Assembly: GCF_010915705.1 (NCBI RefSeq)
Contig: NZ_JAAIKE010000002.1
Location: 496,001 to 560,000, forward strand
DNA: 64,000 nt
Direction of reading: 5' to 3'
Origin: Pseudotabrizicola algicola
GTDB taxonomy: Bacteria > Pseudomonadota > Alphaproteobacteria > Rhodobacterales > Rhodobacteraceae
Position numbers and translations under genes: made by a program. A model generated the notes under the pieces. It did no database searches and was not told the DNA's origin. It worked only from the letters and a program-made list of their open reading frames with translations. Below are positions 3,946 to 27,990 of the stretch, in pieces. Within the stretch, counting starts at the first letter, position 1. Each line of letters starts with the position of its first letter.

Positions 3946-3952
3946 GGAACGC

Positions 3953-4966: not shown

Positions 4967-4975
4967 AGGACCATC

Positions 4976-8212: not shown

Positions 8213-9094
8213 TCAAAGCGTTCCGTGTGTTTGGGAATAGCGGGAAAGGCTTTCCGCCAGTTTGTCGAAGTTTTCTGCCGCATAGGCGCGGTAATCGGCC
8301 CCCGGCGCGGCGAGGTGAAGGTCAGACACCGCCGCCCACAACGCCTCGCGCAGCAGGCTCGCGCATTGCATCGCATCAAAGGCGCGCAGGAACGCGGCAT
8401 CGGGCGCATGGCCCAGATAGGCCCGCAACAGCGCCTGCCGTTCCCCTGCGGTCATTCCGGCATTAGACGCCACGCCCGCCAGATCGAACATCGCCGTGCC
8501 GAAACCCGCATATTCGTAATCGATCAGCCACAGCCGCTGCCCGTCGTCCAGAATATTGGCGGGCAGCAGGTCATGATGGCCAAAGACGATCGGCATCGGC
8601 ACCTGCACCGCCTCCAGCCGCGCCGAAAGCGCCAGCCAGCGCGGCAGATCGGGCGCAAAAGGGCTGCCCCCCGCCGCGATGGTCCGCGCATAATCGCGGA
8701 TCACATGAAAGGGCCAGAAGATATGGGCCGTGCCGGAAACATGCTCGGCCATCCCGTCATGGAACCGCCGCAGCAGCGCGCCGGTCCGCTCGGGGGCCGC
8801 GCGCACATCGGCTGCCGTCCATGTGCGCGACGGAACATAGGCCACCACGCTGACCCCCTCGGCCGCATATTCCACCGCAGGGCCAAACCCCGCCGCATGG
8901 GCCGCCCGCGCGGTTGCCACCTCGCGCGCGCGGTCCACATGGTGAAAGGGGAAATCGCGGCCAAAGCGCGCCACATGCCGCCCCGCCGCATCGGTCACCA
9001 GCCAGCTTTCGTTGGAAAGCCCGCCCTCCAGCGGCACCGCCTCCGGCACGCCGCGCCAGCAGGGCAGCGCCATGATCTGCGCCGGCGCGCTCAT
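8213..9094 (-). CDS. Aminoglycoside/choline kinase-family phosphotransferase
   Basis: The start at 9094 overlaps the permease stop (ATGA, 9091-9094), giving a 293-residue protein. It has the catalytic loop HHDLLPANILDD (HxDxxxxN) and the metal-binding aspartate in LIDYEYAGFG, typical of the APH/choline-ethanolamine kinase fold. The position between a betaine-type importer and a demethylating dehydrogenase suggests phosphorylation of an imported amino alcohol such as choline. Other hydroxylated amines cannot be excluded. A second, clearly different member of the family is at 14720. No truncation is seen. Confidence 0.85.
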   Translation of the reverse strand: MSAPAQIMALPCWRGVPEAVPLEGGLSNESWLVTDAAGRHVARFGRDFPFHHVDRAREVATARAAHAAGFGPAVEYAAEGVSVVAYVPSRTWTAADVRAAPERTGALLRRFHDGMAEHVSGTAHIFWPFHVIRDYARTIAAGGSPFAPDLPRWLALSARLEAVQVPMPIVFGHHDLLPANILDDGQRLWLIDYEYAGFGTAMFDLAGVASNAGMTAGERQALLRAYLGHAPDAAFLRAFDAMQCASLLREALWAAVSDLHLAAPGADYRAYAAENFDKLAESLSRYSQTHGTL

Positions 9095-11076
9095 GCCGTC
9101 GCCTCCAGCCCCAGCCGCGCCCGCGCGCGGCGGGCATAGGCATGCAGCAACCGGTCCGCGATGATGGCAATGAAGGCGATGCCCAGCCCCGCCACCAAGC
9201 CATTGCCCGGATTGGCCTTTGTCAGCGCGATATAGACATCCTGCCCCAGATCGCGGGTGCCGACCAGCGCGGTGATCACCAGCATCGACAGCGCGAACAT
9301 GATCGTCTGGTTCAGGCCCAGCAATATCTCGGGCAGCGCCAGCCGCAGGCGGATGCGGGTCAGTATCTGCCACGGCGTGCAGCCCATCGCCCGCCCCGCC
9401 TCGATCAGACGCGGGTCCACCGATTGCAGGCCCAGAACCGTGTAACGGATCGCGGGCACCACCGCATAGGCGACCACCGCAATCATCGCGGTGAAATCCC
9501 CCACACGGAACAGCATCACGATGGGCATCAGGTAGACAAAGCTCGGCAGCGTCTGCGCCGTGTCGATCACCACCCGCGTCACCGCCCACACCCGCTCCCG
9601 TGTCGCCACAACGATGCCGACAGGCACCCCGATGGCCATGGCGATCAGGGTCGAGATGCCGCACAGGTACACCGTGACCATCGCCTTTTCCCATTGCCCC
9701 GTCGCGGCGATCAGGAAAGACAGCCCCGCCGTCAGCAGCGCCAGCCGCCAGCCGCCCAGACGCCAGCCCGCCACCCCCAGCAGCGCCACCACCGCCAGCC
9801 ACGGCAGGCCCAGAAGGAACCGCTTCACCGGCACCAGAAGCCAGACCAGAAAAAAGGTCTTCACCGCCTCCAGCGTGTCAAAGAAGGTCAGGTTGATCCA
9901 TTGCACCGCCGCCGCCCAGAACGCGCTCGTGGAAAGCCGCGCCGCCTCGGGATAGGTCTGCACCGCCGGAAAGATCAGCCCCAGCGCAAAGCCCGCCCCG
10001 ATCATCGCCAGACCCGCCACCAGATACGGATGCTGCCAGCCGATGTCGTTTGCCGTGCCGCGCTGCGCCACCGCCTGACTGAGCCGGTCAAGCGCGATGG
10101 CCAGCGCCACGATCGCCAGCCCCGCCTCCAGCCCTGCGCCGAAATCCAGCCGGCGCAGCGCGCTCAGCACGTCAAAGCCAAGGCCCCCCGCCCCGATCAT
10201 CGACGCGATGATGACCATGTTCAGCGACAGCATGATCACCTGATTGACCCCGACCATCAGCGGCGCGCGGGCCGAGGGGACCAGCACCCGCCACAACCGC
10301 TGCCGCCCCGTGCAGCCCACCATCCGCGCCAGATCATGCGCCTCCTCCGGCACCCGCGACAGCGCCAGCGTGGTGATCCGCGTCATCGGCGGGGTGGCAT
10401 AGATCAGCGTCGCAATCACCGCCGCCGTGGGGCCGAAACCGAACAGGATCAGCACCGGCACCAGATAGGCAAAGACCGGCATCGTCTGCATCAGGTCCAG
10501 CAGCGGTCGCAAGCCACGCTCGAACCACGCGAACCGCCATGCCAGAATCCCCAAGGCCAGCCCGAAGACCACCCCCAGCGGCACCGCCACCAGCACCGAG
10601 GCCAGCGTGACCATCGCGCTCTGCCATTGGCCGAACACGGCAATGAACCCAAAGCACACCACCATCAGCGCCGCCAAGCGCAGTCCGCCCGCCCAATGGC
10701 CCAGCAGCGCCATCACCCCGATCACCGCCATCCATGACAGCGGCGGCACATGCTGCACCGTCACCCCGCCCGACTGTTGCTGCACCCCCGTCGCCAGCAG
10801 CGCCAGCACCATCCGGTAGGGCGCATCCACCACCGCCGCCACCCCGCGGGTGATGTCGGAAAAGGCCACGGGCCCAAGGCTCGCCTCCTTGACCAGCCAG
10901 TTGATCGCGCCGCCGATCCAGGCCGCCGCCGGAATCTGCCATGCCTTGGGGTAATCGAAGGCCAGCGGCAGCGCCGCCCGCCCCCACAGCCACAGTGCCA
11001 GCGACAGGGCCAGCGACAGCCACCACAGCCACCGCCCGTCAAACGGGCGCGGGGCAGACAGCAGCAGCGCGCTCAT
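9091..11076 (-). CDS. Fused glycine betaine/proline-type ABC permease
   Basis: The 661-residue integral membrane protein holds two ProW-like permease domains in one chain. Two EAA loops are visible: EEAHDLARMVGCTG in the first half and IEAGRAMGCTPWQILTRI in the second. Classical ProW is a single domain that acts as a homodimer, so this fusion gives both halves of the channel in one polypeptide. The gene overlaps its neighbours by 4 bp at both ends (ATGA at 11073-11076 and 9091-9094), so translation is probably coupled. It should import a quaternary ammonium compound together with the ATPase and binding protein upstream. Confidence 0.9.
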   Translation of the reverse strand: MSALLLSAPRPFDGRWLWWLSLALSLALWLWGRAALPLAFDYPKAWQIPAAAWIGGAINWLVKEASLGPVAFSDITRGVAAVVDAPYRMVLALLATGVQQQSGGVTVQHVPPLSWMAVIGVMALLGHWAGGLRLAALMVVCFGFIAVFGQWQSAMVTLASVLVAVPLGVVFGLALGILAWRFAWFERGLRPLLDLMQTMPVFAYLVPVLILFGFGPTAAVIATLIYATPPMTRITTLALSRVPEEAHDLARMVGCTGRQRLWRVLVPSARAPLMVGVNQVIMLSLNMVIIASMIGAGGLGFDVLSALRRLDFGAGLEAGLAIVALAIALDRLSQAVAQRGTANDIGWQHPYLVAGLAMIGAGFALGLIFPAVQTYPEAARLSTSAFWAAAVQWINLTFFDTLEAVKTFFLVWLLVPVKRFLLGLPWLAVVALLGVAGWRLGGWRLALLTAGLSFLIAATGQWEKAMVTVYLCGISTLIAMAIGVPVGIVVATRERVWAVTRVVIDTAQTLPSFVYLMPIVMLFRVGDFTAMIAVVAYAVVPAIRYTVLGLQSVDPRLIEAGRAMGCTPWQILTRIRLRLALPEILLGLNQTIMFALSMLVITALVGTRDLGQDVYIALTKANPGNGLVAGLGIAFIAIIADRLLHAYARRARARLGLEATA

Positions 11077-12089
11077 GCCTCGCCCCCCAGCAGCAGGCGG
11101 ATCACATCCTCGCGCCGCACGGTGCCGATGGCCTGACCATCCCGCGAAACCCCCACCCGCTCGGCCCCCGACAGGAAAGACCGCCCCGCCTCGGCCACCG
11201 TGGCGCGGGCGGGCAGGCAGGGCATGTCCGCAGGCACCGGCCCCGGCGTCATCAAGGACGCCAGCCGCACCACCTTGGCGCGCGGCACCGCCCGCGTGAA
11301 CTCGCGCACGTAGTCGGTGGCCGGGCTCAGCACCAGATCTTCCGGCGTGCCGATCTGCACCACCGCGCCATCCTTCATGATGGCAATACGGTCGGCCAGC
11401 CGGATCGCCTCGTCAAAGTCATGCGTGATGAACACGATCGTCTTGTGCAGCCGCGATTGCAGTCGCATGAACTCGTCCTGCAACTCGCGCCGGATCAGCG
11501 GGTCCAGCGCAGAAAACGGCTCGTCCAGAAACCAAAGCTCCGGCTCGGCCGCCAAAGACCGCGCGATGCCCACCCGCTGCTGCTGCCCGCCCGACAACTG
11601 CCGTGGGTAAGATGCCTCCCGCCCCGTCAGCCCGACAAGGGTGATCATCTCCAGCGCCCGCGCCTCGCGCGCGGCCTGCGCCATGCCCTGCACCTCCAGC
11701 GGAAAGGCGACATTGTCCAGCACCGTCATATGCGGCAGCAAGGCAAAATGCTGAAACACCATGCCCATCCTGTGCCGCCGGATCTGCGTCATCTCGGCCT
11801 CGGATGCCGCCAGCAGATTCTGCCCGTTGAACAGGATTTCCCCCGCCGTCGGCTCGATCAGCCGCGACAGGCAGCGCACCAGCGTCGACTTGCCCGACCC
11901 CGACAGCCCCATGATGACGAAAATCTCGCCGCGCCGCACGCTCAGGTTCACCGCCCGCACCGCAGGCACCAGCCCCATCGCCACCAGCCGCGCGGCATCC
12001 TCGCCCGCCGCCTGCATCTGCTCGGCGGCGCGCGCGCCGAACACCTTCCAGACATTGCGGCACACAAGCGTATCGGGCGCGGCGTCCAT
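11073..12089 (-). CDS. proV: Glycine betaine/proline-type ABC ATPase
   Basis: A 338-residue ProV/OpuAA-like ATPase. It begins with a CRNVWKVFG stretch, then Walker A GLSGSGKST at 61-69, the signature LSGGQQQR, and Walker B with LWFLDEPFSALD. The last 70 or so residues resemble a single short CBS-like module instead of the CBS pair found in osmosensing ProV/OpuA. This argues for a catabolic rather than an ionic-strength-gated importer, though that is inference. It overlaps the permease gene by 4 bp. Confidence 0.92.
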   Translation of the reverse strand: MDAAPDTLVCRNVWKVFGARAAEQMQAAGEDAARLVAMGLVPAVRAVNLSVRRGEIFVIMGLSGSGKSTLVRCLSRLIEPTAGEILFNGQNLLAASEAEMTQIRRHRMGMVFQHFALLPHMTVLDNVAFPLEVQGMAQAAREARALEMITLVGLTGREASYPRQLSGGQQQRVGIARSLAAEPELWFLDEPFSALDPLIRRELQDEFMRLQSRLHKTIVFITHDFDEAIRLADRIAIMKDGAVVQIGTPEDLVLSPATDYVREFTRAVPRAKVVRLASLMTPGPVPADMPCLPARATVAEAGRSFLSGAERVGVSRDGQAIGTVRREDVIRLLLGGEA

Positions 12090-12095
12090 CGCGGC

Positions 12096-13031
12096 TTACT
12101 TTGCGATCCACGCGCTCCACGTCGGCTCATTGGCGGCGATCCACTCGGCCACCACGGCCTCCACCGTCTTGCCGTTCAGGTCCACCTCGGTAATCATCGC
12201 GCCCATCGCGTCATTGTCGATGCTGAAGGCCGAAATCGCCTTGTGCGCGCCGGGCCATTTGTCCTTCAGCCCCGTCCAGCCGACCTTCCAGATATCGCCA
12301 AAGGGCTTGCCGCAATCATAGGCGGCATCGGGGTTCCCGCCCCATGCCGGATCGGTATAGCACTCCGCCGTATAGGTCGGGAACTCCACCCATTCCCCCT
12401 CATACTTGGCGGGCGCCCAATGCGGCGCATAGATCCACAGCAGAACGGGGGCCTGCCGCTGATAGGCCGATTCCAGCTCGGCAAACAGTGCGGCATCGGT
12501 TCCGGCGTGGATCACCTCGAACGGCAGGTCCAGCGCCTCGATCCGTTCCTCGTCAAAGCCGCCCCATGTCACCGGCCCGCCCAGATAGCGCCCCTTCGGC
12601 GCGGTTTCCGGCGTGGAAAACGCCTCGGCGCAGGCAGGCTCCTTCAGCGCCTCCCAGTTCGGCAGGCCGGGGCATTTTTCCTTCATATAGGCAGGATACC
12701 ACCATTCCTCTTTCGCCTGCATCCCCGTGGGGCCAAGCACCTCCACCCCGCCGGTCGCCACGGCGGCATCCATCGCCTCGCGCCCGGTGGTTTCCCAGAT
12801 TTCCATTGCGACATGCAGATCGCCCGTCTCCAGCCCTGCAAACTGCGCCAGATAATCGGCCTGCACATATTCCACATTATAGTCGCCCTTGCGCAGCACC
12901 TCTCCCATCAGCTGCGTGGTAATCAGCTGCCCCGTCCAGTCATGCAGCGTCAGCTTGATCGGGTCGGTCGAATCCTGTGCCATCGCGGTGCTGGCGCAAA
13001 GAACGGCGGCGAGGGTAACTGTCAGGCGCAT
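12096..13031 (-). CDS. Glycine betaine/choline-type periplasmic binding protein (OpuAC family)
   Basis: The start at 13031 is set by a signal peptide (residues 1-19, MRLTVTLAAVLCASTAMAQ) and a GGGAG ribosome-binding site 6 bp upstream. The 311-residue protein belongs to the OpuAC/ProX family. Members bind quaternary ammonium groups in cages of aromatic residues. Suitable tryptophans and tyrosines occur in LHDWTGQ, MEIWETT, EEWWYPAYM and LLWIYAPHWAPAKYEGEW. It is the first gene of the leftward operon. The ligand could be glycine betaine, choline, carnitine, proline betaine or another betaine; the sequence does not decide. Confidence 0.88.
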   Translation of the reverse strand: MRLTVTLAAVLCASTAMAQDSTDPIKLTLHDWTGQLITTQLMGEVLRKGDYNVEYVQADYLAQFAGLETGDLHVAMEIWETTGREAMDAAVATGGVEVLGPTGMQAKEEWWYPAYMKEKCPGLPNWEALKEPACAEAFSTPETAPKGRYLGGPVTWGGFDEERIEALDLPFEVIHAGTDAALFAELESAYQRQAPVLLWIYAPHWAPAKYEGEWVEFPTYTAECYTDPAWGGNPDAAYDCGKPFGDIWKVGWTGLKDKWPGAHKAISAFSIDNDAMGAMITEVDLNGKTVEAVVAEWIAANEPTWSAWIAK

Positions 13032-13271
13032 CGGTTTCTCCCTGGTCTGGAACGGGGCCGCACATGGCGCAGCCTGTGTGTCGGGGTCCGGGCGCTTGGG
13101 GCGTGACAGCGGCCTGCGCCTTCTGGTCATCGCCTATTTAGCGGGCCTCTCCCCGTCCCCTGTCAACGAAAAATTGGGAGATATGTGGTTTTGCTGACCG
13201 TTTGTTTGTCTTTCACTGAATAAACGGGCAAACTATGCGCAAAACCCAAACGCCCTACAGGACGCCGCCCC
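13032..13271. promoter_or_regulatory. Divergent control region with DeoR operator candidate
   Basis: This 240-bp region lies between the betaine-importer operon and a DeoR-type regulator gene. Near the regulator start, CCGTTT at 13198-13203 and AAACGG at 13222-13227 form an inverted repeat, with GTTTG (13200-13204) and CAAAC (13229-13233) shifted inside it. DeoR-family operators often contain such TTTG-rich repeats. The DeoR protein probably controls both directions from here; that is inferred from layout. Confidence 0.4.
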
Positions 13272-14719: not shown

Positions 14720-15619
14720 ATGCAAGACGATATCGCGGCCATCATCGCAGATATTCCGGCGCTTGCCGGATGGCAGGGCAAGGCCGAGCGCCTCGGCGGG
14801 CTGACGAACCGCGTCTACCGGCTGGGCGATGCCATCCTGCGCGTGCCGGGCGAAGGCACCGCCGATTACATCGACCGCGCTGCCGAGGCCGTGGCCGCCG
14901 AGGCCGCAGCCAAGGCCGGCGTCAGCCCTACCGTGCTCTACAACAGCCCCGCCAAAGGTATCATGGTCACCCGTTACATCGACGGCACCACCACCATGAC
15001 GCCGCAGGCCTTCCGCAGCCGCCCCGGCGCGCCCGCCCGCGCCGCCCACGCCTTGCGCCAACTGCACCACTCGGGCCAGACCTTCCCCACCCGCTTCGAG
15101 CTTTTCGCCATGATCGACGACTACCTGCGCCTGCTGTCGGGCAAGGATGTCACCCTGCCACAAGGCTATCACGCCGTGGTGGCAGAGGCGGGGGCGGTGC
15201 GCAGCGCCCTCGCCCGCAACCCCGCGCCCCTCGTCCCCTGCCATTGCGATCCCCTGTGCGAGAACTTCCTCGATACCGGCACCCGCATGTGGATCGTCGA
15301 TTGGGAATATGCCGGCATGAATGATCCGATGTGGGATCTGGGCGATCTTTCGGTCGAGGCAGAGTTTGACGCGGCGCAAGATACCGAACTCCTCGCCGCC
15401 TATTTCAACGGCCCCGCCCCGCCGCAAGATGCCGCGCGCATGGTGATCTACAAGGCGATGTGTGATCTGTTGTGGACGCTCTGGGGCCTGATCCAGCTTG
15501 CCAACGGCAACCCTGCCGATGACTTTCAGGCCTATGCCGACACCCGCTTTGCCCGCTGCCGCGCGCTGATGGCGACGCCCGATTTCGCCCGCCATCTGGC
15601 CACCCTGCAAGCATCATGA
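14720..15619 (+). CDS. Choline/ethanolamine kinase-like phosphotransferase
   Basis: The 299-residue protein has the LicA/choline-kinase signatures. These are an N-terminal GGLTNRVYRL nucleotide-binding stretch (about 26-35), a catalytic loop CHCDPLCENFLD (HxDxxxxN) and IVDWEYAGMNDPMWDLGDL with the second acidic ligand. It resembles bacterial choline kinases more closely than the homologue at 8213. Its stop overlaps the next start (ATGA), so it is translationally coupled to an M20 deacylase. Whether the substrate is choline, ethanolamine or another amino alcohol is not resolved. Confidence 0.85.
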   Translation: MQDDIAAIIADIPALAGWQGKAERLGGLTNRVYRLGDAILRVPGEGTADYIDRAAEAVAAEAAAKAGVSPTVLYNSPAKGIMVTRYIDGTTTMTPQAFRSRPGAPARAAHALRQLHHSGQTFPTRFELFAMIDDYLRLLSGKDVTLPQGYHAVVAEAGAVRSALARNPAPLVPCHCDPLCENFLDTGTRMWIVDWEYAGMNDPMWDLGDLSVEAEFDAAQDTELLAAYFNGPAPPQDAARMVIYKAMCDLLWTLWGLIQLANGNPADDFQAYADTRFARCRALMATPDFARHLATLQAS

Positions 15620-16776
15620 CCCCCACCGAACTCTGGCTCTCCCGCCTCGTCGCCCACCCCACCGTCAGCGCCGACAGCAACCTGCCCCTGATCGCCGAAG
15701 TCGAACAGGCGCTGACCGCCCTCGGCGCCGATTGCACCCGCTTTCCCGACCCCACCGGCCAGAAAGCCGCCCTGCTCGCCCGCCTCGGCCCCGATGCCCC
15801 CGGCGGCTTGATGCTGTCGGGCCATGTCGATGTGGTCCCCGCCGCAGGGCAGGACTGGACGGTGCCGCCCTTCCAGATGACCCGCCAAGGCACCCGCCTC
15901 TACGGGCGCGGCACCACCGACATGAAGGGCTTTGTCGCCGCCATGCTGGCGCTGGCCCAGCGCGCGCCCAAGCTCACCCGCCCGCTCTGGCTTGCCATTT
16001 CCTACGACGAGGAAGTCGGCTGCGTCGGCGTCCGCCCCATGCTCGCCGCGATTGCCGCGCGCAACATCCGCCCCGATCTGGTGGTCGTGGGCGAACCCAC
16101 CGCCATGCAGCTTGGCCTTGGCCACAAGGGCAAGCTGGCCTTCACCGTCACTGCCACCGGCACCGCCCGCCATTCCTCCGAGGCCCCTCTGGCGCTCAAC
16201 GCCCTGCATCTGGCCGCCGATTTCATGGCCGGCGTGCGCGCCCTTCAGGATGACATCGCGCGCAGCGGCCCCGCCGAGGACGGCTACTCCATCCCCCACG
16301 CCACCCTGCATGTCGGGCGGCTGACCGGCGGCACCGTCGTCAACCTCGTGCCGGACAAGGCCGAACTGCTGATGGAAGCGCGCCTGCTGGCCAGCGACGA
16401 CGCCGCCGCCCTCACCCTGCGCCTGCACGATCTGGCCGCCGAGATCGTGGCCCCGCACCGCGCCGCCCATCCCTCGGCCAGCCTCACCCTCACCGAAACC
16501 GGCAGCTACCCCGGCCTCTCCACGCCCGCTTCCCCCGCCGTCAGCGCCTTCGCCGCCTGCCTGCCCGCCGGCACCAGCGCTTTCAAACTCAGCTACGGCA
16601 CCGAAGGCGGCCTTTTCGCGCAAAGCCTTGGCGTCCCCGTCGTCATCTGCGGCCCCGGCGACATGGCGCAAGGCCACCGCCCCGACGAATACATCGAAAC
16701 CAGCCAGCTCGCCGCCTGCGACGCGGCCCTTGATGCCGCGCTCCGGCGGTTTTGCTTGACCAGCGGCAGTGATTAG
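15616..16776 (+). CDS. M20-family deacylase, acetylornithine deacetylase (ArgE)-like
   Basis: The 386-residue zinc hydrolase has SGHVDVVPAAGQDW (first metal ligand), RGTTDMKGF (bridging aspartate) and SYDEEVGCVGVRP (catalytic and metal glutamates), the standard M20A set. It also has the dimerisation domain and a late DMAQGHRPDEYIE ligand motif. The closest named type is ArgE, which removes the acetyl group from N-acetylornithine. The location with a choline-kinase-like gene and RidA suggests a catabolic deacylase instead of arginine synthesis. The start overlaps the upstream stop by 4 bp. Confidence 0.85.
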   Translation: MTPTELWLSRLVAHPTVSADSNLPLIAEVEQALTALGADCTRFPDPTGQKAALLARLGPDAPGGLMLSGHVDVVPAAGQDWTVPPFQMTRQGTRLYGRGTTDMKGFVAAMLALAQRAPKLTRPLWLAISYDEEVGCVGVRPMLAAIAARNIRPDLVVVGEPTAMQLGLGHKGKLAFTVTATGTARHSSEAPLALNALHLAADFMAGVRALQDDIARSGPAEDGYSIPHATLHVGRLTGGTVVNLVPDKAELLMEARLLASDDAAALTLRLHDLAAEIVAPHRAAHPSASLTLTETGSYPGLSTPASPAVSAFAACLPAGTSAFKLSYGTEGGLFAQSLGVPVVICGPGDMAQGHRPDEYIETSQLAACDAALDAALRRFCLTSGSD

Positions 16777-16778
16777 CC

Positions 16779-16831
16779 CCAGCCTAAGCAAAGCCAAGGC
16801 AAGCCATGCTTTTGCTTTAGCCAAAGCCGCC
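16779..16831 (+). promoter_or_regulatory. Shared 53-bp element, copy A, upstream of ridA
   Basis: The element starts with CCAGCCTAA (16779-16787). After 17 nt comes a 27-bp block, 16805-16831, that begins CATG and contains TTTTGC (16810-16815) and CCGCC. A second copy at 18915-18967 has the identical 9-mer, the same spacing and 20 of 27 matches in the block. The ridA start is 36 bp after it. TTTTGC could serve as a -35-like box with CATCCT 17 bp downstream. It is a candidate LysR-controlled promoter. Confidence 0.6.
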
Positions 16832-16867
16832 CCATCCTGCCGCCACAGCCGCACACAGGAAACCGTC

Positions 16868-17287
16868 ATGGCCCACACCCGCCACCGCAAGTTCAACACC
16901 AAGGACACCTACCCCGAGCAGAAGCTTGACAATGATCTGGCGCAGGCCGTCGTCGCGCGCGGGCGCATGGTGTTCCTGCGTGGCCAATGCCCGCAAGACC
17001 TTGATACCGCGCAGAATATCAACAGCCATGATCCGGTGGAACAGACCCACAAGGTCATGCAGAACATCCGCCAGTTGCTCGAAGAGGTCGGCGGCAGCAT
17101 GGAGCATCTGTGCAAGGTCGTGGTCTACCTCACCGATGTGCGCCACCGCGAGGCGGTCTATCGCACGATGGGCGAATACATCAAAGGCGTGCATCCCGTC
17201 TCGACCGGCGTCGTCGTCACCGCGCTGGCCCGTCCCGAATGGCTGGTGGAAATCGACGGCACCGCCGTGATTCCGGACGAGCCATGA
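16868..17287 (+). CDS. RidA/YjgF/UK114-family protein
   Basis: The start at 16868 (MAHTRHRKFNTKD) is set by an AGGAAAC ribosome-binding site and the usual family length; the product is 139 residues. RidA-type proteins hydrolyse reactive imines/enamines from amine metabolism or act as dedicated deaminases. The C-terminal VEIDGTAVI motif and the central GGSMEHLCKVVVYLTD stretch are typical. This copy is about 10 residues longer than archetypal RidA and lies in a catabolic context, so it may be a pathway-specific paralogue. It overlaps the next gene by 4 bp (ATGA). Confidence 0.88.
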   Translation: MAHTRHRKFNTKDTYPEQKLDNDLAQAVVARGRMVFLRGQCPQDLDTAQNINSHDPVEQTHKVMQNIRQLLEEVGGSMEHLCKVVVYLTDVRHREAVYRTMGEYIKGVHPVSTGVVVTALARPEWLVEIDGTAVIPDEP

Positions 17288-17955
17288 CCTTCTCGCTGAT
17301 CGCCCGCTGCGCGCGCACAGGCCAGTTCGGCATGGTCATCGCCTCCTCCTCGCCCGCCGTGGCGGCGCGCTGCGCCCATGTGCGGGCAGGCGTGGGCGCG
17401 GTCGCCAGCCAGAACGTCACCGACCCCGCCCTCGGCCCCCTGCTGCTCGACCATATGCAAGCCGGCCTCTCCGCACCCGAGGCGATGGCGCAGGTCACCG
17501 CAGACCGCCCGCATATCGCCTACCGCCAACTCCTCGCCATCGACGCGCAGGGCCGCACCGCCATCCACTCCGGCGCGCAGGTGCTTGGCCTCTGGGGCGA
17601 AGCCACCGGCACCGATTGCGCCGCGGGCGGCAACCTGCTCGCCCATACCGGCGTCCCCGCCGCCATGATCGCCGCCTTCGAATCCGCTCAGGGCCCCTTG
17701 GGCGAGCGGCTGATGGCTGCCCTTGAATCCGGCCTTGCGGCGGGCGGCGAGGCTGGCCCCGTCCATTCCGCAGGGCTGAAACTGGCGGACCGCCTGCCAT
17801 GGCCGCTGGCCGATCTGCGCATCGACTGGGCCGACACGCCCATCGCCATGCTGCGCGCCGCATGGGATGTGTATTGCCCCCAGATGCAGGCCTATGTCCA
17901 ACGCGCCACCGACCCGACGCAAGCGCCCAGCTACGGCGTCCCCGGCGACGAATAG
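17284..17955 (+). CDS. DUF1028 family protein
   Basis: The 223-residue protein begins MTFSLIARCARTGQFGMVIA, the conserved start of DUF1028, which is considered related to Ntn-hydrolases with activity from the N-terminal region. The start overlaps the RidA stop (ATGA at 17284-17287). Further conserved segments are SQNVTDP and AAGGNLLA. No reaction has been firmly assigned that I know of. Co-translation with RidA, and with an M20 deacylase upstream, points to an amidase/hydrolase step in breakdown of a nitrogen compound. That role is inference. Confidence 0.82.
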   Translation: MTFSLIARCARTGQFGMVIASSSPAVAARCAHVRAGVGAVASQNVTDPALGPLLLDHMQAGLSAPEAMAQVTADRPHIAYRQLLAIDAQGRTAIHSGAQVLGLWGEATGTDCAAGGNLLAHTGVPAAMIAAFESAQGPLGERLMAALESGLAAGGEAGPVHSAGLKLADRLPWPLADLRIDWADTPIAMLRAAWDVYCPQMQAYVQRATDPTQAPSYGVPGDE

Positions 17956-17967
17956 CCATAGCCCGCC

Positions 17968-18912
17968 ATGCCCCTGCGCTTCACCCTTCGCCAACTCGAA
18001 TACCTCGTCGCGGTGGGCGAGGCGGGGTCTATCGCGGTGGCCGCCGAACGCATCAACGTCTCCTCCCCCTCCATTTCCGCCGCCATCGCCCATCTGGAAC
18101 AAGAGTTCGGCCTGCAACTCTTTGTCCGCCGCCACGCGCAGGGCCTGTCGCTCACCAGCGCGGGCCGCCAGATGTTTGACCACGCGCGGCAGGTCCTTGC
18201 ACAGGCGGGCCAGTTGAACGATCTGGCCGCCAGCATCACGCAAACCGTGCAGGGCCCGCTGCACGTCGGCGGGCTCATCACCTTTGCGCAGGTCATCCTG
18301 CCGCAACTGCGCCGCAGCTTCACCGACCTGCACCCGCAGGTCGATTTCCACCAGTCCGAAGGCGACCAGCCCGAGCTTTACGACCGCCTGCGCAACGCCC
18401 GTCTCGACGCAGCCTTGGGCTATGATCTCGACATCCCCGCCGATCTCGCATTCGTGCCGCTGGCCAGCCTCACGCCCTATGCCGTGCTGCCCGCCAGCCA
18501 CCCCCTCGCCGCGCAAGCCAGCCTGACCCCGCAGGATCTGGCCCCGCACCCGATGGTGCTGCTCGACCTGCCGCTTTCGGCCGATTACTTCCTGTCCTGC
18601 TTTCACGCCGCCGGACTGAAACCCCGCATCGTCGAACGCACCCGTGACATGGGGGTGATGCAAAGCCTTGTGGGCCAAGGCTTCGGCTATTCCATCGCCA
18701 ACATCCGCCCTTGGTCGGGCCGCTCGCCCGATGGCCAGCCGCTGCGCTTCGTCCCGCTCACGGGCGAGGTGCGTCCGATGCAACTGGGCCTGATCCTGCC
18801 CGCAGGCGCGCAATCCTCGCTCACCCTGCGCAGCTTCGTCGCCCATTGCCGCGCACAACTGACACCCGAAAAGGTGCGCAGCCTGCGCCCGGGCATCGAC
18901 CCCGAAGCTTAG
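17968..18912 (+). CDS. LysR-family transcriptional regulator
   Basis: The 314-residue protein has the LysR helix-turn-helix at about residues 4-62 (RFTLRQLEYLVAVGEAGSIA, then SPSISAAIAHLEQEFGLQLF), followed by a periplasmic-binding-like sensor domain (HVGGLITFAQVILPQL onward). It starts 12 bp after the DUF1028 gene and probably shares its transcript. The same 53-bp element precedes both the ridA unit and the flavoprotein-Rieske unit, so this regulator likely controls both, including itself. The inducer is unknown. Confidence 0.9.
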   Translation: MPLRFTLRQLEYLVAVGEAGSIAVAAERINVSSPSISAAIAHLEQEFGLQLFVRRHAQGLSLTSAGRQMFDHARQVLAQAGQLNDLAASITQTVQGPLHVGGLITFAQVILPQLRRSFTDLHPQVDFHQSEGDQPELYDRLRNARLDAALGYDLDIPADLAFVPLASLTPYAVLPASHPLAAQASLTPQDLAPHPMVLLDLPLSADYFLSCFHAAGLKPRIVERTRDMGVMQSLVGQGFGYSIANIRPWSGRSPDGQPLRFVPLTGEVRPMQLGLILPAGAQSSLTLRSFVAHCRAQLTPEKVRSLRPGIDPEA

Positions 18913-18914
18913 GT

Positions 18915-18967
18915 CCAGCCTAACCCCGGCTGAAGCAGATCATGGTTTTGCCAAAGCAAGACCCGCC
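18915..18967 (+). promoter_or_regulatory. Shared 53-bp element, copy B, upstream of flavoprotein gene
   Basis: It starts with CCAGCCTAA at 18915-18923, directly after the lysR stop, followed after 17 nt by a 27-bp block at 18941-18967. The block has TTTTGC at 18946-18951 and a possible -10 box TACACT at 18969-18974, 17 bp downstream. The flavoprotein start is 38 bp after the element, against 36 bp for copy A. The matched position argues for a common promoter/operator. Confidence 0.6.
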
Positions 18968-19005
18968 CTACACTCGGCCCATCCCCAGCCGAAAGGTCGC
19001 GCCCG

Positions 19006-20265
19006 ATGCCCAGCGAAACCATCCACACCCTTGTCATCGGCGGCGGTCAGGCGGGCATCGCCACCAGCGCCCACCTGTCACAGCACGGCATCCCGCATCT
19101 GGTCTTGGAACGCGCCCGCATCGCCGAACGCTGGCGCAGCGCGCGGTGGGATTCGCTCGTCGCCAACGGCCCCGCATGGCATGACCGCTTTCCGGTGATG
19201 GAGTTTTCCGGCATCTCCCCCGATGCCTTTCCCGGCAAGGACAGCGTCGCCGATTACTTCGAAACCTTCGCCGCCAAGATCAACGCCCCCATCCGCTGCG
19301 GGGTGGAAGTCACCGCCCTGCACCGCACCCCCGCCGGCAAGTTCCGCGCCGAAACCCCGCAGGGCGAGATCACCGCCGATCACGTCGTCGTCGCCACCGG
19401 CCCCTTCCAGAAGCCGCTGATCCCGCCGCTGGTCCCGCCGCAGCCCGGCCTGATGCAACTGCACTCCAGCGCCTACAAGAATCCGGACCAACTGCCGCAA
19501 GGCGCGGTGCTGGTGGTCGGCGCAGGCTCCTCCGGCGCGCAGATCGCCGAGGAACTCCAGCGCGCGGGCCGTCAGGTCTATCTGTCGATCGGCCCGCATG
19601 ACCGCCCGCCGCGCCGCTATCGGGGGCAGGATTTCGTCTGGTGGCTGGGCAAGCTTGGCAAATGGGACGCCAAACAGCGCCCCCCCGGCACCGAGCATAT
19701 CACCATCGCTGTCAGCGGCGCCTATGGCGGCCAGACGATGGATTTCCGCCGTCTCGCCGCGCAAGGCGTGGTCCTGCTCGGCCGCGCCAACGGCTTTGCG
19801 GACGGCGAAATCACCTTGAACAACGACCTCGCCCACAACATCGCGCAGGGCGATGCCAACTACCTCTCGGTGCTGGACGAGGCCGATGCCTATGCCGCCG
19901 CCCACGGCCTTGACCTGCCGCCCGAACCGCAGGCCCGCGTCTTTGCCCCGCTTCCCGCCTGCGTCACGCAGCCGATCCTCTCGCTCGATCTCGCCGCGCA
20001 CGGCATCACCACCATCCTCTGGGCCACCGGCTATGCGCCCGATTTCGGCTGGATCAAGATGGAGGCCTGCGACACCACGGGCCGTCCGATCCATGCCGAG
20101 GGCATCTCGCCCATCCCCGGCCTCTATTTCGTCGGCCTGCCCTGGCTCTCCTGTCGCGGCTCGGCCTTCATCTGGGGCGCGTGGCGCGACGCCGAACGGC
20201 TGGCTGCCCATATCGCCGCCAAAGCCTCCGCCCCTGTCGCCGCCCGATTGCCCGCCCCCGCCTGA
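19006..20265 (+). CDS. Flavin-containing monooxygenase-like NAD(P)/FAD oxidoreductase
   Basis: The 419-residue flavoprotein has an FAD-binding LVIGGGQAGIATSAHL at about residues 7-22 and an NAD(P)-binding VLVVGAGSSGAQIAEEL at about 166-182. The late ATG motif, here LWATGYAPDF, is shared with flavin monooxygenases and CzcO-type proteins. The classical FMO motif FxGxxxHxxxY/F is not clearly present, so monooxygenase activity is likely but not proven. It is followed after 95 bp by a Rieske oxygenase gene. The pair, under a shared LysR-type element, may carry out successive oxidations of one substrate. Confidence 0.78.
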   Translation: MPSETIHTLVIGGGQAGIATSAHLSQHGIPHLVLERARIAERWRSARWDSLVANGPAWHDRFPVMEFSGISPDAFPGKDSVADYFETFAAKINAPIRCGVEVTALHRTPAGKFRAETPQGEITADHVVVATGPFQKPLIPPLVPPQPGLMQLHSSAYKNPDQLPQGAVLVVGAGSSGAQIAEELQRAGRQVYLSIGPHDRPPRRYRGQDFVWWLGKLGKWDAKQRPPGTEHITIAVSGAYGGQTMDFRRLAAQGVVLLGRANGFADGEITLNNDLAHNIAQGDANYLSVLDEADAYAAAHGLDLPPEPQARVFAPLPACVTQPILSLDLAAHGITTILWATGYAPDFGWIKMEACDTTGRPIHAEGISPIPGLYFVGLPWLSCRGSAFIWGAWRDAERLAAHIAAKASAPVAARLPAPA

Positions 20266-20360
20266 TCGGCAGGCAGCGCGGCCCAAACCGCCAGCCGCCG
20301 CTTGCCCCGCCCCCGAACCTGCCGCATGCTTCCCGCAACCCCAGCCGCCACAGGTGCAAG

Positions 20361-21494
20361 ATGACAACGCACGACACAAGCCTGACCCCGCTGGCCGAAC
20401 TGCGTGCCAATGTCGCGCAACCCTTTGCCCGCGCCAGCGCCATGCCGAAATCGGTCTACACCTCGCCCGACTTCGCCGCGCTCGAACAGCAGCACATCTT
20501 CGCGCGTGAATGGCTTTGTGCAGGCCGCGCCGATGCCCTGCCCAATCCCGGCGATTACCTCACGATGGATATCTCGGGCGAACCCGTCATCATCCTGCGC
20601 GACCGTGAAGGCACCCTGCGCGGCCTCTCCAACGTCTGCCGCCACCGGATGAGCACGCTGCTCGAAGGGCGCGGCAACACCCGCGCCATCACCTGCCCCT
20701 ATCACGCCTGGACCTATAACCTCGACGGCACCTTGCGCGGCGCGCCCGCGATGACGCTCAATGAATCCTTCTGCAAGGATCAGATCGCCCTGCCGCCCAT
20801 CCGCGTCGAGAACTGGCTCGGCTGGATCATGGTCACGCTCAACCCCGATGCGCCGCCCCCGTCCGACGCCCTGCGCGATGTGCAGAACCTCGTCGGCTAT
20901 CTCGACATGGAGCATTACGTCGAAGCCTTCCGCGAGGAATTCCACTGGAACACCAACTGGAAGGTGCTGGCCGAGAATTTCATGGAAAGCTACCACCTGC
21001 CGGTCTGCCACGCCGACACCATCGGCGGCACGGTGGACCTGCTGAAGATGACCTGCCCCGAAGGCTCGCCCGCCTTCAACTACCATTACATCGTCAAGAA
21101 TGACTCGCTGCCGCTCACGCTGGCGCATCCGTCCAACACCACGCTGACCGGCGATCAGCGCCGCATCACATGGCTTCTCTCCATCTATCCGGCCCTGCTC
21201 ATCACCCTCACGCCGGGTTACTTCTGGTATCTCTGCCTGACTCCGGACGGCCCCGGAAAGGTGCGGGTGCTGTTCGGCGGCGGGCTTGCCCCCGACTGGG
21301 CCGCCGACCCCGAAGCCCCCGCGCATTTCGCCGCGCTCAAGGCGCTGCTCGATGATGTGAATGTCGAAGACAAGGGCTGTGTGGAACGGGTCTATCGCGG
21401 CCTCTGCGCCAGCATGTCGGCCCCCGGCGCACTCAGCCATCTGGAGCGGCCGAACTTCGAATTTGCGACCTATATCGCAAGCAAGATGCCCTGA
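20361..21494 (+). CDS. Rieske non-heme iron oxygenase, large subunit
   Basis: The start at 20361 (MTTHDTSLTPLAELRANVAQ) lies 12 bp after CCACAGGTG. Upstream in-frame starts would run back into the flavoprotein gene. The 377-residue protein has a Rieske [2Fe-2S] centre (CRH at about 93-95 and CPYH at about 112-115) and a catalytic iron site NFMESYHLPVCH (about 211-222). The residue two before the first His-Tyr pair is Glu where ring-hydroxylating dioxygenases have a bridging Asp. As I recall, the carnitine oxygenase CntA also has Glu here. The sequence therefore fits an N-demethylase or monooxygenase of quaternary ammonium compounds. No reductase or ferredoxin partner is encoded nearby. Confidence 0.85.
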   Translation: MTTHDTSLTPLAELRANVAQPFARASAMPKSVYTSPDFAALEQQHIFAREWLCAGRADALPNPGDYLTMDISGEPVIILRDREGTLRGLSNVCRHRMSTLLEGRGNTRAITCPYHAWTYNLDGTLRGAPAMTLNESFCKDQIALPPIRVENWLGWIMVTLNPDAPPPSDALRDVQNLVGYLDMEHYVEAFREEFHWNTNWKVLAENFMESYHLPVCHADTIGGTVDLLKMTCPEGSPAFNYHYIVKNDSLPLTLAHPSNTTLTGDQRRITWLLSIYPALLITLTPGYFWYLCLTPDGPGKVRVLFGGGLAPDWAADPEAPAHFAALKALLDDVNVEDKGCVERVYRGLCASMSAPGALSHLERPNFEFATYIASKMP

Positions 21495-21558: not shown

Positions 21559-22275
21559 GTGGACAGCCGCACCACCCATCACGACCGTATCCTCGCCGCC
21601 CTGCGCGACAGGATCACCGGCGGCGACTGGCCCCCCGGCTTCCGGTTGCCGTTCGAAACCGACCTTGCCGAGCAACACGGCGTGTCGCGCATGACGATGA
21701 ACAAGGTGCTGGGCCAACTGACGCGCGAAGGCTACCTTGTCCGCCGCAAGCGGCTCGGCACCTTCGTGGCGCAGCCCGTTGCACAGGCGGCGGTCATGGC
21801 CATCCCCGACATTCAGGCCGAGGTCGAGGCGCTCGGCCTGCCGTGGCACTTTGCCCTGACCGCGCGCGATCTGCGCCCGCCCCGCCCCGATGAACTCAAG
21901 GCCGCCCGCATCGACAGCGCCGCGCCGGTGCTGGCGCTGACGGGGCTGCATTACGCGGGCGACCAGCCCTTCTGTCTGGAACAGCGGCTCATCAACCCCG
22001 CCGCCGCCCCCGACGCGCTGACCGAGGATTTTGCGCAGATCGCCCCCGGCCAATGGCTCTTGCGCGAAATCCCGTGGACATCGGCCGACCACCGCATCCG
22101 CGCCATCGCGGCCAGCCCCGCCACCGCCCGCGCGCTGGCACTGGCGACGGGCGAGGCCTGTCTCGAAGTCACCCGCCGCACCGAAAGCGCGGGCCAATGG
22201 GTCACGCTGGTGGTGCAAACCTATCCCGGCGCGCGGCACGAACTGGTCAGCCGCTTCACCGCCGACTCGCGCTAA
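21559..22275 (+). CDS. hutC: GntR/HutC-family histidine-utilisation repressor
   Basis: A GTG start at 21559, 5 bp after AGGGG, gives a 238-residue protein beginning VDSRTTHHDRI. Residues 10-70 form a GntR winged helix-turn-helix (FETDLAEQHGVSRMTMNKVL), and the rest is a UTRA ligand-binding domain. HutC represses hut genes and is released by urocanate in characterised systems. It lies at the edge of a complete hut cluster and its end overlaps convergent hutD by 4 bp. Confidence 0.9.
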   Translation: MDSRTTHHDRILAALRDRITGGDWPPGFRLPFETDLAEQHGVSRMTMNKVLGQLTREGYLVRRKRLGTFVAQPVAQAAVMAIPDIQAEVEALGLPWHFALTARDLRPPRPDELKAARIDSAAPVLALTGLHYAGDQPFCLEQRLINPAAAPDALTEDFAQIAPGQWLLREIPWTSADHRIRAIAASPATARALALATGEACLEVTRRTESAGQWVTLVVQTYPGARHELVSRFTADSR

Positions 22276-22774
22276 AGCCAGACCGACAGCGCGGGCGCCC
22301 CCGTCACGGCGGCGCGCAGCCCCGCATCCACCTGCGCCATCTCCAGCAGATCCAGCCGATCGAGCCCCGCCACCGGCGCCAGCAACAGCGCAAAGCGCGC
22401 GGCGGGGTCAAGCGGCCCTGCCCCCACCCGCGCCCGCAGCGGCCGCCGCACCATCACGTTGAAATCCAGCAGCGGCGCATCCACTTCCGCCGCGCAGGCC
22501 ACATCCCCCGCAAAGGCAAAGGGCTCCAGAGGCGCAAGCGCATGCGCCTGCCCGCCAAGGCGCAGCACCATCCGCCCGCCCTCGATCACCGTCAGCACCC
22601 GATCCACCCCCGGAAATTCCGAGAATGGCCCCGATGCCTCCACCCGCGCGGTGCTCAGCCGCAGCGTGAAGTCGTCAAACCCCGCGCCCTCGGGCCAGCA
22701 GAGAATCTCTGCCGTGGTGCCGCCGCCGTTCTTCCAAGGGCGAAAGACGCGGGCGCTGGCGGGGTAAACCCCGC

Positions 22775-22778
<4 letters not shown>
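22272..22778 (-). CDS. hutD: HutD-family protein
   Basis: The 168-residue cupin-like protein has the HutD start signature [15 protein letters not shown] (about residues 12-26). HutD is thought to bind formylglutamate and act as a governor of hut pathway flux; it is not one of the five catalytic steps. It is the last gene of the leftward hut operon. The start overlaps the hutU stop (ATGA at 22775-22778). Confidence 0.9.
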
Positions 22779-24460
<1,682 letters not shown>

Positions 24461-24470
24461 GGCTCTCTCC

Positions 24471-25262
24471 TCAGGCACGGGCCAGACGCGGGGCCAGATC
24501 GGCCAGCGTGGCAAGAATTTCGGTCAACGTCCGGCGCAGGTCCGCCGCACGCGCGGTATCCAGCGCAAAGGGCGGCGCTTCGGTTTCCAGATGGCTCTCC
24601 TGCGCCAGTTCCATCTGGATCGCATGAACCCCCTCTTGCGGCCGCCCGTAGTGGCGGGTGGTCCAGCCGCCCTTGAACCGCCCGTTCAGCACCCATGTGC
24701 GCCCCGACGCCGCCGCCACGCGGCACACCGCCGCCTCCAGCGCGGGCGCACAAGTGACGCCGCCATTGGTGCCGATGTTCAGATCGGGCAGCACACCATC
24801 AAACAGCCACGGACAGCGCGACCGGATCGAATGGCAATCATAGACCACCGCCACCCCGTGCCGCGCCCGCACCCGTGCCACCTGCGCAGCCAGCGCCGCG
24901 TGATAGGGCCGATGCACCGCCTCCAGCCACCGCGCCACGTCCGCAGGCCCCGGCGGCACCTCCCAGATCGGCACATTGTCGAATGTGGTTTCGGGAATCA
25001 GCCCCGTCGTCGCCTGCCCCGGATACAGGCTCGCGCCCGAAGGGTCGCGGTTCAGGTCGATCACATAGCGCGATTGCGTCGCGGTTACCGTGGTCAGGCC
25101 GGGAATCAGCCCCGCGTAAAGCTCGTGAATATGCCAGTCCGTATCGCGCAGCACGCGGCCCTCGGCGTTCAGCCGCACCGCCACCTCGGGCGGAACCCCC
25201 GTTCCCACATGCGGAAAGGCCAGAATGACCGGCCCGTCGCCCTGCTCCACCAGGGGCTCCAT
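24471..25262 (-). CDS. hutG: N-formylglutamate amidohydrolase
   Basis: The start at 25262 ([11 protein letters not shown]) is chosen because it overlaps the hutH stop (TGATG); a longer start at 25274 is possible. The 263-residue enzyme has [28 protein letters not shown] and VVYDCHSI, the conserved blocks of N-formylglutamate deformylases. It cleaves N-formyl-L-glutamate to glutamate and formate, the final step of the five-step pathway. Together with hutF it shows that the deiminase branch is used, not direct formiminoglutamase. Confidence 0.93.
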
Positions 25263-26794
25263 CACGCCACCCAAGGCAGCAGGTCTGCCCCCGCCGCCTC
25301 CAGCGCGCCCGATGCCACCAGATCGCCCGCCGCCTCCATGTCACCCCCCATGAAGCGGTCGGCCTCCAGCGCCGGAATCCGCGCCCGCACCGCCGCAATC
25401 GCGGCCTGCAACGCGGGCGAGGTTGCCAGCGGCCCGCGCAAGCCCACGCCCTGCGCCGCCACCATCGCCTCCACCCCGATGATCCAGAACAGGTTCTGCG
25501 TCATGTCCAGAAGCCGCCGCGCGCCGTGGCAGGCCATCGACACATGGTCCTCCTGATTGGCCGAAGTGGGGGTGCTGTCCACACTGGCCGGATGCGCAAG
25601 CATCTTGTTCTCGCTCATCAGGGCGGCAGAGGTGACTTCGGCGATCATCAAACCGGAATTGAGGCCCGGTTTCGGCGTCAGGAACCCCGGCAGGCCAAAG
25701 TTCAGCGCGGGGTCCACCAGCAGAGCAATCCGCCGCTGCGCAATCGCGCCGACCTCCGCCACCGCCAGCGCCACGATATCGGCGGCAAAGGCCACAGGCT
25801 CGGCATGGAAGTTCCCGCCCGACACCACCGACCCATCCGACAGCACCAGCGGGTTGTCGGTCGCGGCATTGGCCTCCACCTCCAGCGTGCGGGCCACATT
25901 GCGCATGATGTCAAGCGCCGCCCCCGCCACCTGCGGATGGCAGCGGATGCAATAGGGGTCCTGCACCCGCTCGTCCCCCTCCACATGGCTGTCGCGGATC
26001 TGGCTGCCCGCCAGCAGCGCGCGCAAGGACGCCGCCACGTCGATCTGCCCCTGATGCCCGCGCAGGGTGTGAATCTCCGCCGCAAAGGGCGCGGTCGATC
26101 CCATCGCCGCATCGGTCGACATGGCACCCGTCACGATCGCCGCCCGCAAGGCGCGCTCGGCACGGAACAGCCCCGCCAGCGCCAGCGCGGTAGAAACCTG
26201 CGTTCCGTTGATCAGCGCAAGACCCTCCTTGGCGGCCAGCACCACAGGCTCCAGCCCCGCCCGCCGCAGCGCCTCTGCTCCCGTCAGGCGCTCGCCCGCA
26301 TAAAACGCCTCGCCCTCGCCGATCATCACCGCCGCCATATGCGCCAAGGGGGCCAGATCGCCCGAGGCCCCGACCGACCCCTTTTCGGGGATCACCGGCA
26401 TCACGCCCTTGGCCAGCATCGCCTCCAGCAGGGTGCTCACCTCTGCCCGCGTGCCGGATGCCCCCCGCCCCAGTGACATCAGTTTCAGCGTCAGGATCAG
26501 CCGCACCACCGCGCCATCCAGCGGCGCACCCACGCCGCAACAATGCGACAGGATCAGGTTGCGCTGCAACTGCGCCACATCCCCCGCCGCAATGCGGATG
26601 GACGCCAGCTTGCCGAACCCCGTGTTCACCCCGTAGACCGCCGCATCCCCTGCCGCGACCTCGGCAATCCGCGCCGCCGCCCGCGCAATCGCGGGCGCGC
26701 ATTCCGGCGACAGACGCGGCGCGCCGCCCTGCCAATACAGGGTGCGCAGGGTCGCCAGCGGCACCGCGCCGGGGGTCAGGATCATCTCGGTCAT
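25262..26794 (-). CDS. hutH: Histidine ammonia-lyase
   Basis: The start at 26794 ([13 protein letters not shown]) overlaps the hutI stop (ATGA), giving 510 residues, the normal size. The Ala143-Ser144-Gly145 triad in [11 protein letters not shown] is the precursor of the MIO cofactor. Tyr54 in VYGVNTGFG is the usual catalytic tyrosine. The enzyme releases ammonia from L-histidine to give urocanate. It lies between hutI and hutG in the operon. Confidence 0.97.
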
Positions 26795-27990
26795 GCGACC
26801 TCTCCCTTGAAAATGCGGGCATGGATCGGGTTGAACCCGATCCGCGCCACCAGTTGCGCCGGGGTCTCCACGTCCCACAGCACCATGTCCGCCGACAATC
26901 CGGGCGCGATCCGCCCCGTCTCGTTGCCAAGACCCAAGGCCCGCGCGGCATGCGCCGTCACCGCCAGCAGGCACTCCGCCACCGTCATCCGGAACAAGGT
27001 CGCGCCCATGTTCATCGTCAGCAAGATCGAGGTCAGCGGCGAGGTGCCGGGGTTGCAATCCGTGGCCAGGGCCATCGGCACCCCCGCCGCGCGGAAGGCC
27101 TCCACGGGCGGCAAAACCGTCTCTCGCAAGGCATAAAACGCCCCCGGCAACAGCACCGCGACCGTGCCAGAGGCCGCCATCGCCCGCGCATCCGCCTCGG
27201 TCGCATGTTCCAGATGATCCGCCGAGAGCGCCCCATAGCCGCAGGCAAACGCCGTGCCACCCAGATGCGAGAGCTGTTCCGAATGGATCTTCACCGGCAG
27301 GCCCAGCGCCCGCGCCCGGTCATACAGCGGGGCCAGTTCTGCGGGCGTAAAGGCGATCCCCTCGCAGAAGGCGTCGACCGCGTCGACCAGCCCTTCGGCC
27401 ACCGCCGCCTCCAGCCCCGCAATCGCCACCTCGGCGATATAGGCCTCGGCCCGCCCCTCATATTCCGGCGGCAGCGCATGGGCGGCCAGCCACGTCGTCA
27501 CCACCCGCACCGCCCGCGCGCGGCCCAGCGCCCGCGCCGCGCGCAGCATGTTCAGTTCCGCCTCGATCGACAGCCCGTAGCCCGACTTCACCTCGACGGT
27601 GGAGACCCCCTCGCGCAGCAGATGGTCCAGCCGTGGCAGGCTCGCCGCCACCAGATCCTCCACCCCCATCGCCCGCGTCGCGCGCATGCTGGCCCTGATC
27701 CCGCCGCCCTCGCGCGCGATCTGCGCATAGGGCACCCCCTCCAGCCGCCGCTCGAACTCGCCCGCGCGGTCGCCGCCGAACACCAGATGCGTGTGGCAAT
27801 CCACCGGCGCCGGCGTCAGCAACCGCCCGCCGCAATCCACCACCTCAACCCCGGCGCGGGCCAACCCCCGCCCCACCGCCACGATGCGCCCGCCTTCGGT
27901 CAGCACTTCAAGCGCGCCGGCCACGGGCGCGCGGTCAATGCCGCCATCGGCTGTCACCACCCGTGCATTGGTCCAAAGCGTGGCTCCCAT
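26791..27990 (-). CDS. hutI: Imidazolonepropionase
   Basis: The 399-residue amidohydrolase starts at 27990 ([13 protein letters not shown]); a start 21 bp upstream is also possible. Metal-binding motifs are [22 protein letters not shown] and [11 protein letters not shown], all typical of HutI. It opens the ring of imidazolone propionate to formiminoglutamate. It is the first gene of the leftward hut operon and is divergent from hutF, with a HutC-like palindrome between them. Confidence 0.95.

Follow-up and report, generated by a model that had tools for sequence, protein, structure and literature searches.

Genes and features of the locus

The window, the whole 64-kb stretch of Pseudotabrizicola algicola DNA that was analysed, holds a cluster of genes around a LysR-type regulator gene (lysR). 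The genes were assigned as follows:

14720-15619, APH-like kinase (Pfam/NCBIfam).
15616..16776, + strand, M20 peptidase / acetylornithine deacetylase-like (ArgE-like) protein (Pfam/NCBIfam), with its stop inside box A.
16868..17284, + strand, RidA family protein (PF01042), the first gene behind box A.
17284..17955, + strand, DUF1028 protein (PF06267).
17968..18912, + strand, LysR-type regulator (PF00126, 8.6e-19; PF03466, 3.3e-33), predicted binder of both boxes, with its TAG stop inside box B.
19006..20265, + strand, NAD(P)/FAD-dependent oxidoreductase, here called FMO (nearest NCBIfam model the MSMEG_0569 family, under the cut-off).
20361..21494, + strand, Rieske oxygenase alpha-subunit type protein (nearest NCBIfam model GbcA, far under the cut-off).

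The LysR protein has the N-terminal HTH_1 and the C-terminal LysR_substrate domains that define its family. Its closest matches, 85-89% identical, are found in Pseudotabrizicola, and the next LysR paralogue in its own genome is 28% identical. The family search placed HutC (GntR family) directly downstream of the cluster. A ProV/ProW/ProX-like transporter and genes read as hutC, D, U, G and H flank the cluster (9091-13130 and 21562-27058), HutC being the only one of them confirmed by family search, and homologues of hutC, D, U and G also lie behind the cluster in the five other Pseudotabrizicola loci. Given these flanking hut genes, the substrate is possibly histidine-derived.

The repeat and the proposed LysR box

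The initial annotation had described a 53-bp element in two copies, A (16779-16831) behind the M20 stop and B (18915-18967) behind the lysR stop. Both copies lie at these places, the identity of 36/53 was reproduced, and CCAGCCTAA is common to the two; by inspection, the gap from the end of the copy to the next ATG is 36 bp for A (ATG 16868) and 38 bp for B (ATG 19006), as had been described. Aligned without gaps over 53 bp, the two intergenic stretches match at 36 positions at best, and since 300 dinucleotide-shuffled pairs gave a mean of 25.3 and a maximum of 30, the resemblance is real. Still, chance at this locus contributes to the value of 36/53. In four other Pseudotabrizicola loci the ridA and FMO promoters match each other at 26, 23, 31 and 28 of 53 positions, and differently headed promoters paired across loci (1188 pairs) match at 22.1 positions on average, with at least 36 in 2 pairs.

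The element was present as described, but its boundary was not the right one, since comparison with relatives showed that the conserved element begins 8 bp earlier. Each 53-bp copy consists of the right arm of a LysR box and the promoter behind it, with the left arm 8 bp upstream; CCAGCCTAA covers the right arm and some of the box centre. The two boxes are:

16771..16789, + strand, LysR box A, predicted recognition site, GATTAGCCCCAGCCTAAGC (inverted repeat, comparison with relatives).
18907..18925, + strand, LysR box B, predicted recognition site, GCTTAGGTCCAGCCTAACC (inverted repeat, comparison with relatives).

The box was defined on 16 loci (L001-L016) with a LysR identity of at least 61%, three hits at 27-32% not being taken as orthologues. 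The upstreams of these loci share, with few exceptions, the inverted repeat GMTTAG-N7-CTAAKC, in which TAG-N7-CTA corresponds to T-N11-A. Its core is TTAG-N7-CTAA (8 letters), and in the locus counts below a box means at least 7/8 core letters. The left arm reads GATTAG from 16771 in box A and GCTTAG from 18907 in box B, which departs once from the consensus, and the TAG of the left arm doubles as a stop codon, that of M20 in box A and that of lysR in box B. The overlap between the lysR stop and the box also occurs in the five other Pseudotabrizicola loci, the box at that place in L003 having fewer than 7/8 core letters. Both A and B thus show the T-N11-A box with dyad symmetry that characterizes promoters of LysR-type transcriptional regulators (LTTRs). 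A palindrome within the 27-bp block of the repeat, GCTTTTGC-N4-GCCAAAGC in A and GGTTTTGC-N4-GCAAGACC in B, was also considered as the operator; it is present in the window but was not reported at that place in the upstreams of relatives, and it was rejected.

The predicted promoter behind each box

When 76 upstreams were aligned on the box without gaps, further conserved positions appeared at a constant distance. In a set of 52 promoters from 39 loci, which omits the window, L002-L005, L011-L013, the lysR and ProV rows and boxes less than 78 bp from the start, 12 positions (20, 22, 25, 28-30, 34, 37-39, 61 and 65, from the first T of the box) exceeded the 95% level that the maximum reaches when the anchors are shifted at random, and positions 20, 22, 25, 28, 29 and 30 of these fall within a second half-site region. 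The corresponding features of the window are:

16793..16803, + strand, second half-site region of A (positions 20-30), family consensus GCTnAG..AAA.
16810..16815, + strand, -35-like hexamer TTTTGC of promoter A (TTT conserved, spacing constant).
16833..16838, + strand, -10-like hexamer CATCCT of promoter A (A and T conserved, positions 61 and 65).
18929..18939, + strand, second half-site region of B (positions 20-30, as in A).
18946..18951, + strand, -35-like hexamer TTTTGC of promoter B (TTT conserved, spacing constant).
18969..18974, + strand, -10-like hexamer TACACT of promoter B (A and T conserved, positions 61 and 65).

The spacer between the -35-like and the -10-like hexamers is 17 bp in the window promoters, and the -10-like hexamer begins 1 bp past the end of each 53-bp copy. 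Transcription is predicted to start around 16845 (A) and 18981 (B), 7 bp behind the -10, which would place the box centre at -65. With these predicted starts, the constant spacing of box, -35 and -10 would fit the LTTR layout of a box near -65 and an activation site over the -35. Excerpts of PMC8407307 give this layout with a box around -65 and a size of 50-60 bp. A scan of 16600-20450 with the strict sigma-70 consensus found no promoter, which may be expectable for an activator-dependent promoter.

The arrangement resembles known LTTR promoters in the family of the regulator, its dyad-symmetric T-N11-A box, the predicted place near -65, the size of the element and a regulator gene that is in its own regulon. 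It differs from them in the sequence of the box, which is of the TTAGG-N5-CCTAA type, in the position of lysR between two targets in the same direction, and in left arms that hold the stops of the preceding genes.

The box in its own genome

The exact core TTAG-N7-CTAA has 4 sites in the 4,491,281 bases (4.49 Mb) of the genome, two of which are A and B. A scan with the 19-bp consensus counted 54 places, where A has 0 mismatches and B has 1, the others among the matches listed having 2. Allowing up to 2 mismatches, the 64-kb window contains no match besides A and B, although at least 2 matches were also obtained in 43/100 shuffles; as the number of matches is unremarkable, it is their quality and context that carry the case. 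No cluster gene was recognised, in ORF lists read by eye without family search, at the other exact core sites (L020 and L023) or at two sites with 2 mismatches (L095 and L100). The genome-wide search that the initial annotation had proposed as a check thus revealed no spread over many unrelated loci, the box being nearly unique to the cluster.

The box goes with operon heads in relatives

Cluster genes and boxes were mapped in 56 relative loci plus the window, with an upstream limit of 260 bp. The head of the operon has a box in 33/37 cases for FMO, 14/16 for Rieske and 9/12 for RidA, 56/65 in total, whereas shuffles gave 2.4 heads with a box (sd 1.5, max 8) and background tiles, taken from the same loci at a distance from the cluster starts, gave 35/2734. 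None of the 103 internal Rieske, RidA and DUF1028 genes has a box. This comparison leaves aside alignments that start after query residue 12, LysR hits under 45% identity, the window and the internal genes behind M20, and its internal set is made up of Rieske, RidA and DUF1028 only; the rule on residue 12 removes the Rieske of L016, which has a 7/8 box upstream.

Of the 56 positives, 18 come from the 18/18 heads of the definition set (L001-L016). In the loci L102-L141, which were fetched after the box had been defined, excluding near-duplicates of the first set, 38/47 heads have a box and 0/74 internal genes do. The 9 heads with no box within 260 bp belong to L112, L114, L115, L118, L123 (two), L127, L140 and L141, and in L127 a full box lies around 290 bp upstream of the head, beyond the limit.

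The gene order varies widely, from Rieske-ridA-DUF1028-lysR in L006, L009 and L107 to an FMO divergent from Rieske in L008 and L010-L013, and through these rearrangements the box goes with whichever cluster gene comes first. The per-gene counts, to which the same residue-12 and LysR-identity rules were applied, include a few other places. The FMO genes classed as internal, because another cluster gene ends just upstream, have a box in 5/7 cases, the window arrangement included. Internal Rieske genes have it in 1/20 and internal RidA genes in 3/39 cases, namely in the window, L001 and L002, each behind M20. Before lysR we found it in 2/12 cases as head and in 6/45 as internal gene, lying 25-30 bp ahead of the gene in these 8 relative loci (L007, L008, L010-L013, L102 and L103). 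M20 has a box in 1/11 (head) and 2/13 (internal) cases, L134 being among these loci, and the ProV-like gene in 1/3.

The box and the LysR across the family

A sample of 149 genomes of the family, which includes our own genome and one member of the same genus, contained 40 genomes with the LysR (E up to 1e-80), 53 with FMO and 55 with DUF1028, so that the cluster recurs in around one third of them. Taking the 320 bp ahead of each FMO, Rieske and RidA gene, we found a box in 37/40 genomes with the LysR (own included) versus 0/16 with cluster genes but without the LysR, where the stretches fetched were examined (the FMO stretch alone in G054, the DUF1028 stretch alone in G036 and G059); related genomes are not independent, and P values therefore overstate the certainty. 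For FMO alone the box is present in 35/39 LysR-positive versus 0/14 LysR-negative genomes. When our own genome and G135 (the training locus L005) are set aside, the figures are 35/38 overall and 33/37 for FMO, and when all 8 core letters are demanded the contrast is 27/40 versus 0/16. The LysR-positive genomes G014, G068 and G105 have no box of 7/8 within 320 bp before their cluster genes.

In G034 and G104 the FMO gene lies 1.26 Mb and 0.6 Mb away from lysR on the same contig, and an exact palindrome is found around 85-105 bp upstream of each FMO. The exact TTAGG-N5-CCTAA has 52 sites in the 149 genomes, of which 18 are within 10 kb of lysR and 22 are in genomes without the LysR, therefore the core sequence alone is not diagnostic. 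Two genomes, G052 (L170) and G133 (L181), have the cluster but no close LysR and carry another LysR-type gene (33-37% over part) adjoining RidA, which suggests a replacement of the regulator.

Proposed regulation of the cluster and alternative explanations

The initial annotation had read the repeat as a LysR-controlled promoter used twice. This reading gains support from the way in which the box tracks operon heads, from its presence according to that of the LysR and from its near-uniqueness, and we consider it very probable that the LysR encoded between boxes A and B recognises both of them and would thereby control both promoters. The boxes, their near-uniqueness, their association with operon heads, their co-occurrence with the LysR and their spacing come from the computations, and from them we infer how the system might work. 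The LysR would bind the DNA directly, as a tetramer placed on the box (around -65) and on the promoter-proximal second half-site region. On binding an inducer, a small molecule from the pathway, it would activate transcription rather than repress it. Box A would drive ridA-DUF1028-lysR, and in this way the LysR would control its own supply, whereas box B would drive the FMO gene and, by read-through, Rieske. This would be an ordinary kind of bacterial gene control, and the prediction from the sequences, an LTTR paired with an operator at two sites, is well supported. No published description of this pair was found in the literature searched (including that on DUF1028), to which this statement is limited.

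Among the alternatives, that the LysR binds both boxes but mainly represses is unlikely: the boxes close to the lysR start in the 8 relative loci mentioned above would be at a place more typical of repression, while in A, B and the other aligned heads the box is upstream of the -35 at a constant spacing, which is the layout of activated LTTR promoters. It is much less probable that the box belongs to a nearby regulator, HutC (GntR family) or a DeoR-like protein, the LysR being a bystander. In the window HutC is the neighbour of the cluster on its downstream side, and the five Pseudotabrizicola loci also have hut genes behind the cluster, but a HutC operator should accompany hut genes across relatives, and 40/44 relative loci with a boxed operon head have no hut gene in the stretch examined; moreover the box tracks the LysR (37/40 versus 0/16 genomes). 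HutC and DeoR were thus rejected as cognate regulators.

Two further explanations concern the resemblance itself. A recent duplication of one promoter stretch, with no shared regulator, would explain why 36/53 exceeds the 23 to 31 of the same promoter pair in the four other Pseudotabrizicola loci. However, A matches the ridA orthologues at 34-45/53 and B the FMO orthologues at 34-40/53, above the crosswise values of 22-34, which points to two separate lineages and led us to reject this explanation; the persistence of the box across rearrangements is also contrary to it, and we regard it as extremely improbable. The probability that chance or composition produced the resemblance is practically negligible: on inspection the region is GC-rich with recurring GCC/AAGC-like words, and the 19-bp pattern is not in itself rare when up to 2 mismatches are allowed, but 0/300 shuffled pairs reached 36 and the box is conserved across species.

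Extent of the proposed regulon

The flavoprotein and Rieske genes had also been proposed to form one regulon with ridA-DUF1028-lysR. This very probably holds for FMO, which has box B, but the Rieske gene of the window has no box and its membership would come by read-through. No LysR box was found before Rieske in the six aligned loci (window and L001-L005), where the following feature was observed instead:

20300..20330, + strand, conserved box-free promoter-like sequence before Rieske (CTTGCCC, GCATGCT), from the alignment of the window and 5 Pseudotabrizicola loci; putative function.

The two motifs show one change in L003 and L005. Since Rieske has its own promoter-like sequence, control by the LysR, the regulator that we favour for both boxes, would reach it by read-through from the FMO promoter.

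Possible pathway and use of the operator

The homarine (hom) operon reportedly comprises five enzymes plus a regulator, and the gene content of the cluster presumably resembles it. Unlike that operon, the cluster adjoins hut genes, and none of the 8 proteins scanned in the window is an aldehyde dehydrogenase. In L116 the order FMO-Rieske-RidA-DUF1028 is followed by an ORF of 498 aa with no assigned family and then by the LysR; in L119 an ORF of the same length is an aldehyde dehydrogenase, and this locus adds aldehyde dehydrogenase, OYE-like oxidoreductase and ABC transporter genes. A paper on the homarine operon is cited in PMC13390433.

Tentatively, and with more doubt than confidence, we suggest that the LysR may be the dedicated activator of an alphaproteobacterial pathway for an N-methylated heterocycle (a homarine-like compound or, in this genus, a histidine betaine that would feed into the neighbouring hut genes). 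Its TTAGG-N5-CCTAA operator would mark out the regulon from genome to genome, and unlinked FMO, oxidoreductase and ABC transporter genes would be among the members. If so, the operator could be used to find the remaining genes of the pathway. In any case a repeat spotted by eye has led to a testable regulator-operator pair for a catabolic cluster (Rieske, FMO, RidA and DUF1028), and because the operator moves with the genes, unlinked pathway genes may be traced through it and candidate inducers tested with a simple reporter.

Distant and plasmid loci

We also examined 8 plasmid loci. In L186, L187, L190 and L192 a box precedes a cluster or transporter gene, specifically a gene annotated as FAD-dependent oxidoreductase in L187 and an ABC transporter ATP-binding gene in L190. 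The sole box of the Aminobacter locus (L189) is a 7/8 match before an aspartate ammonia-lyase gene. No box was found before the listed starts of cluster genes in Pantoea (L188), Acetobacter (L191) and an E. coli plasmid (L193), the last having one 7/8 match inside the FMO gene. The distant LysR relatives are around 47% identical on the Pantoea and E. coli plasmids and 38.5% in Acetobacter.

The box-bearing loci that carry a name are alphaproteobacterial save L187, which is labelled Roseateles (unverified). This locus (NZ_CP084753.1, UNVERIFIED_ORG) has the FMO-lysR arrangement of Shinella (L015) with two full boxes, and its label may be wrong. In the Leisingera locus L186, genes annotated as flavin reductase, LLM oxidoreductase, alpha/beta hydrolase and aldehyde dehydrogenase (1324-6133) lie ahead of the cluster, a set that we take to be reminiscent of trigonelline breakdown genes. 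On the Pantoea and E. coli plasmids (L188 and L193) the related LysR occurs together with FMO, RidA, DUF1028, ArgE-like and ABC transporter genes, and 103 Klebsiella plasmid records hold a LysR match.
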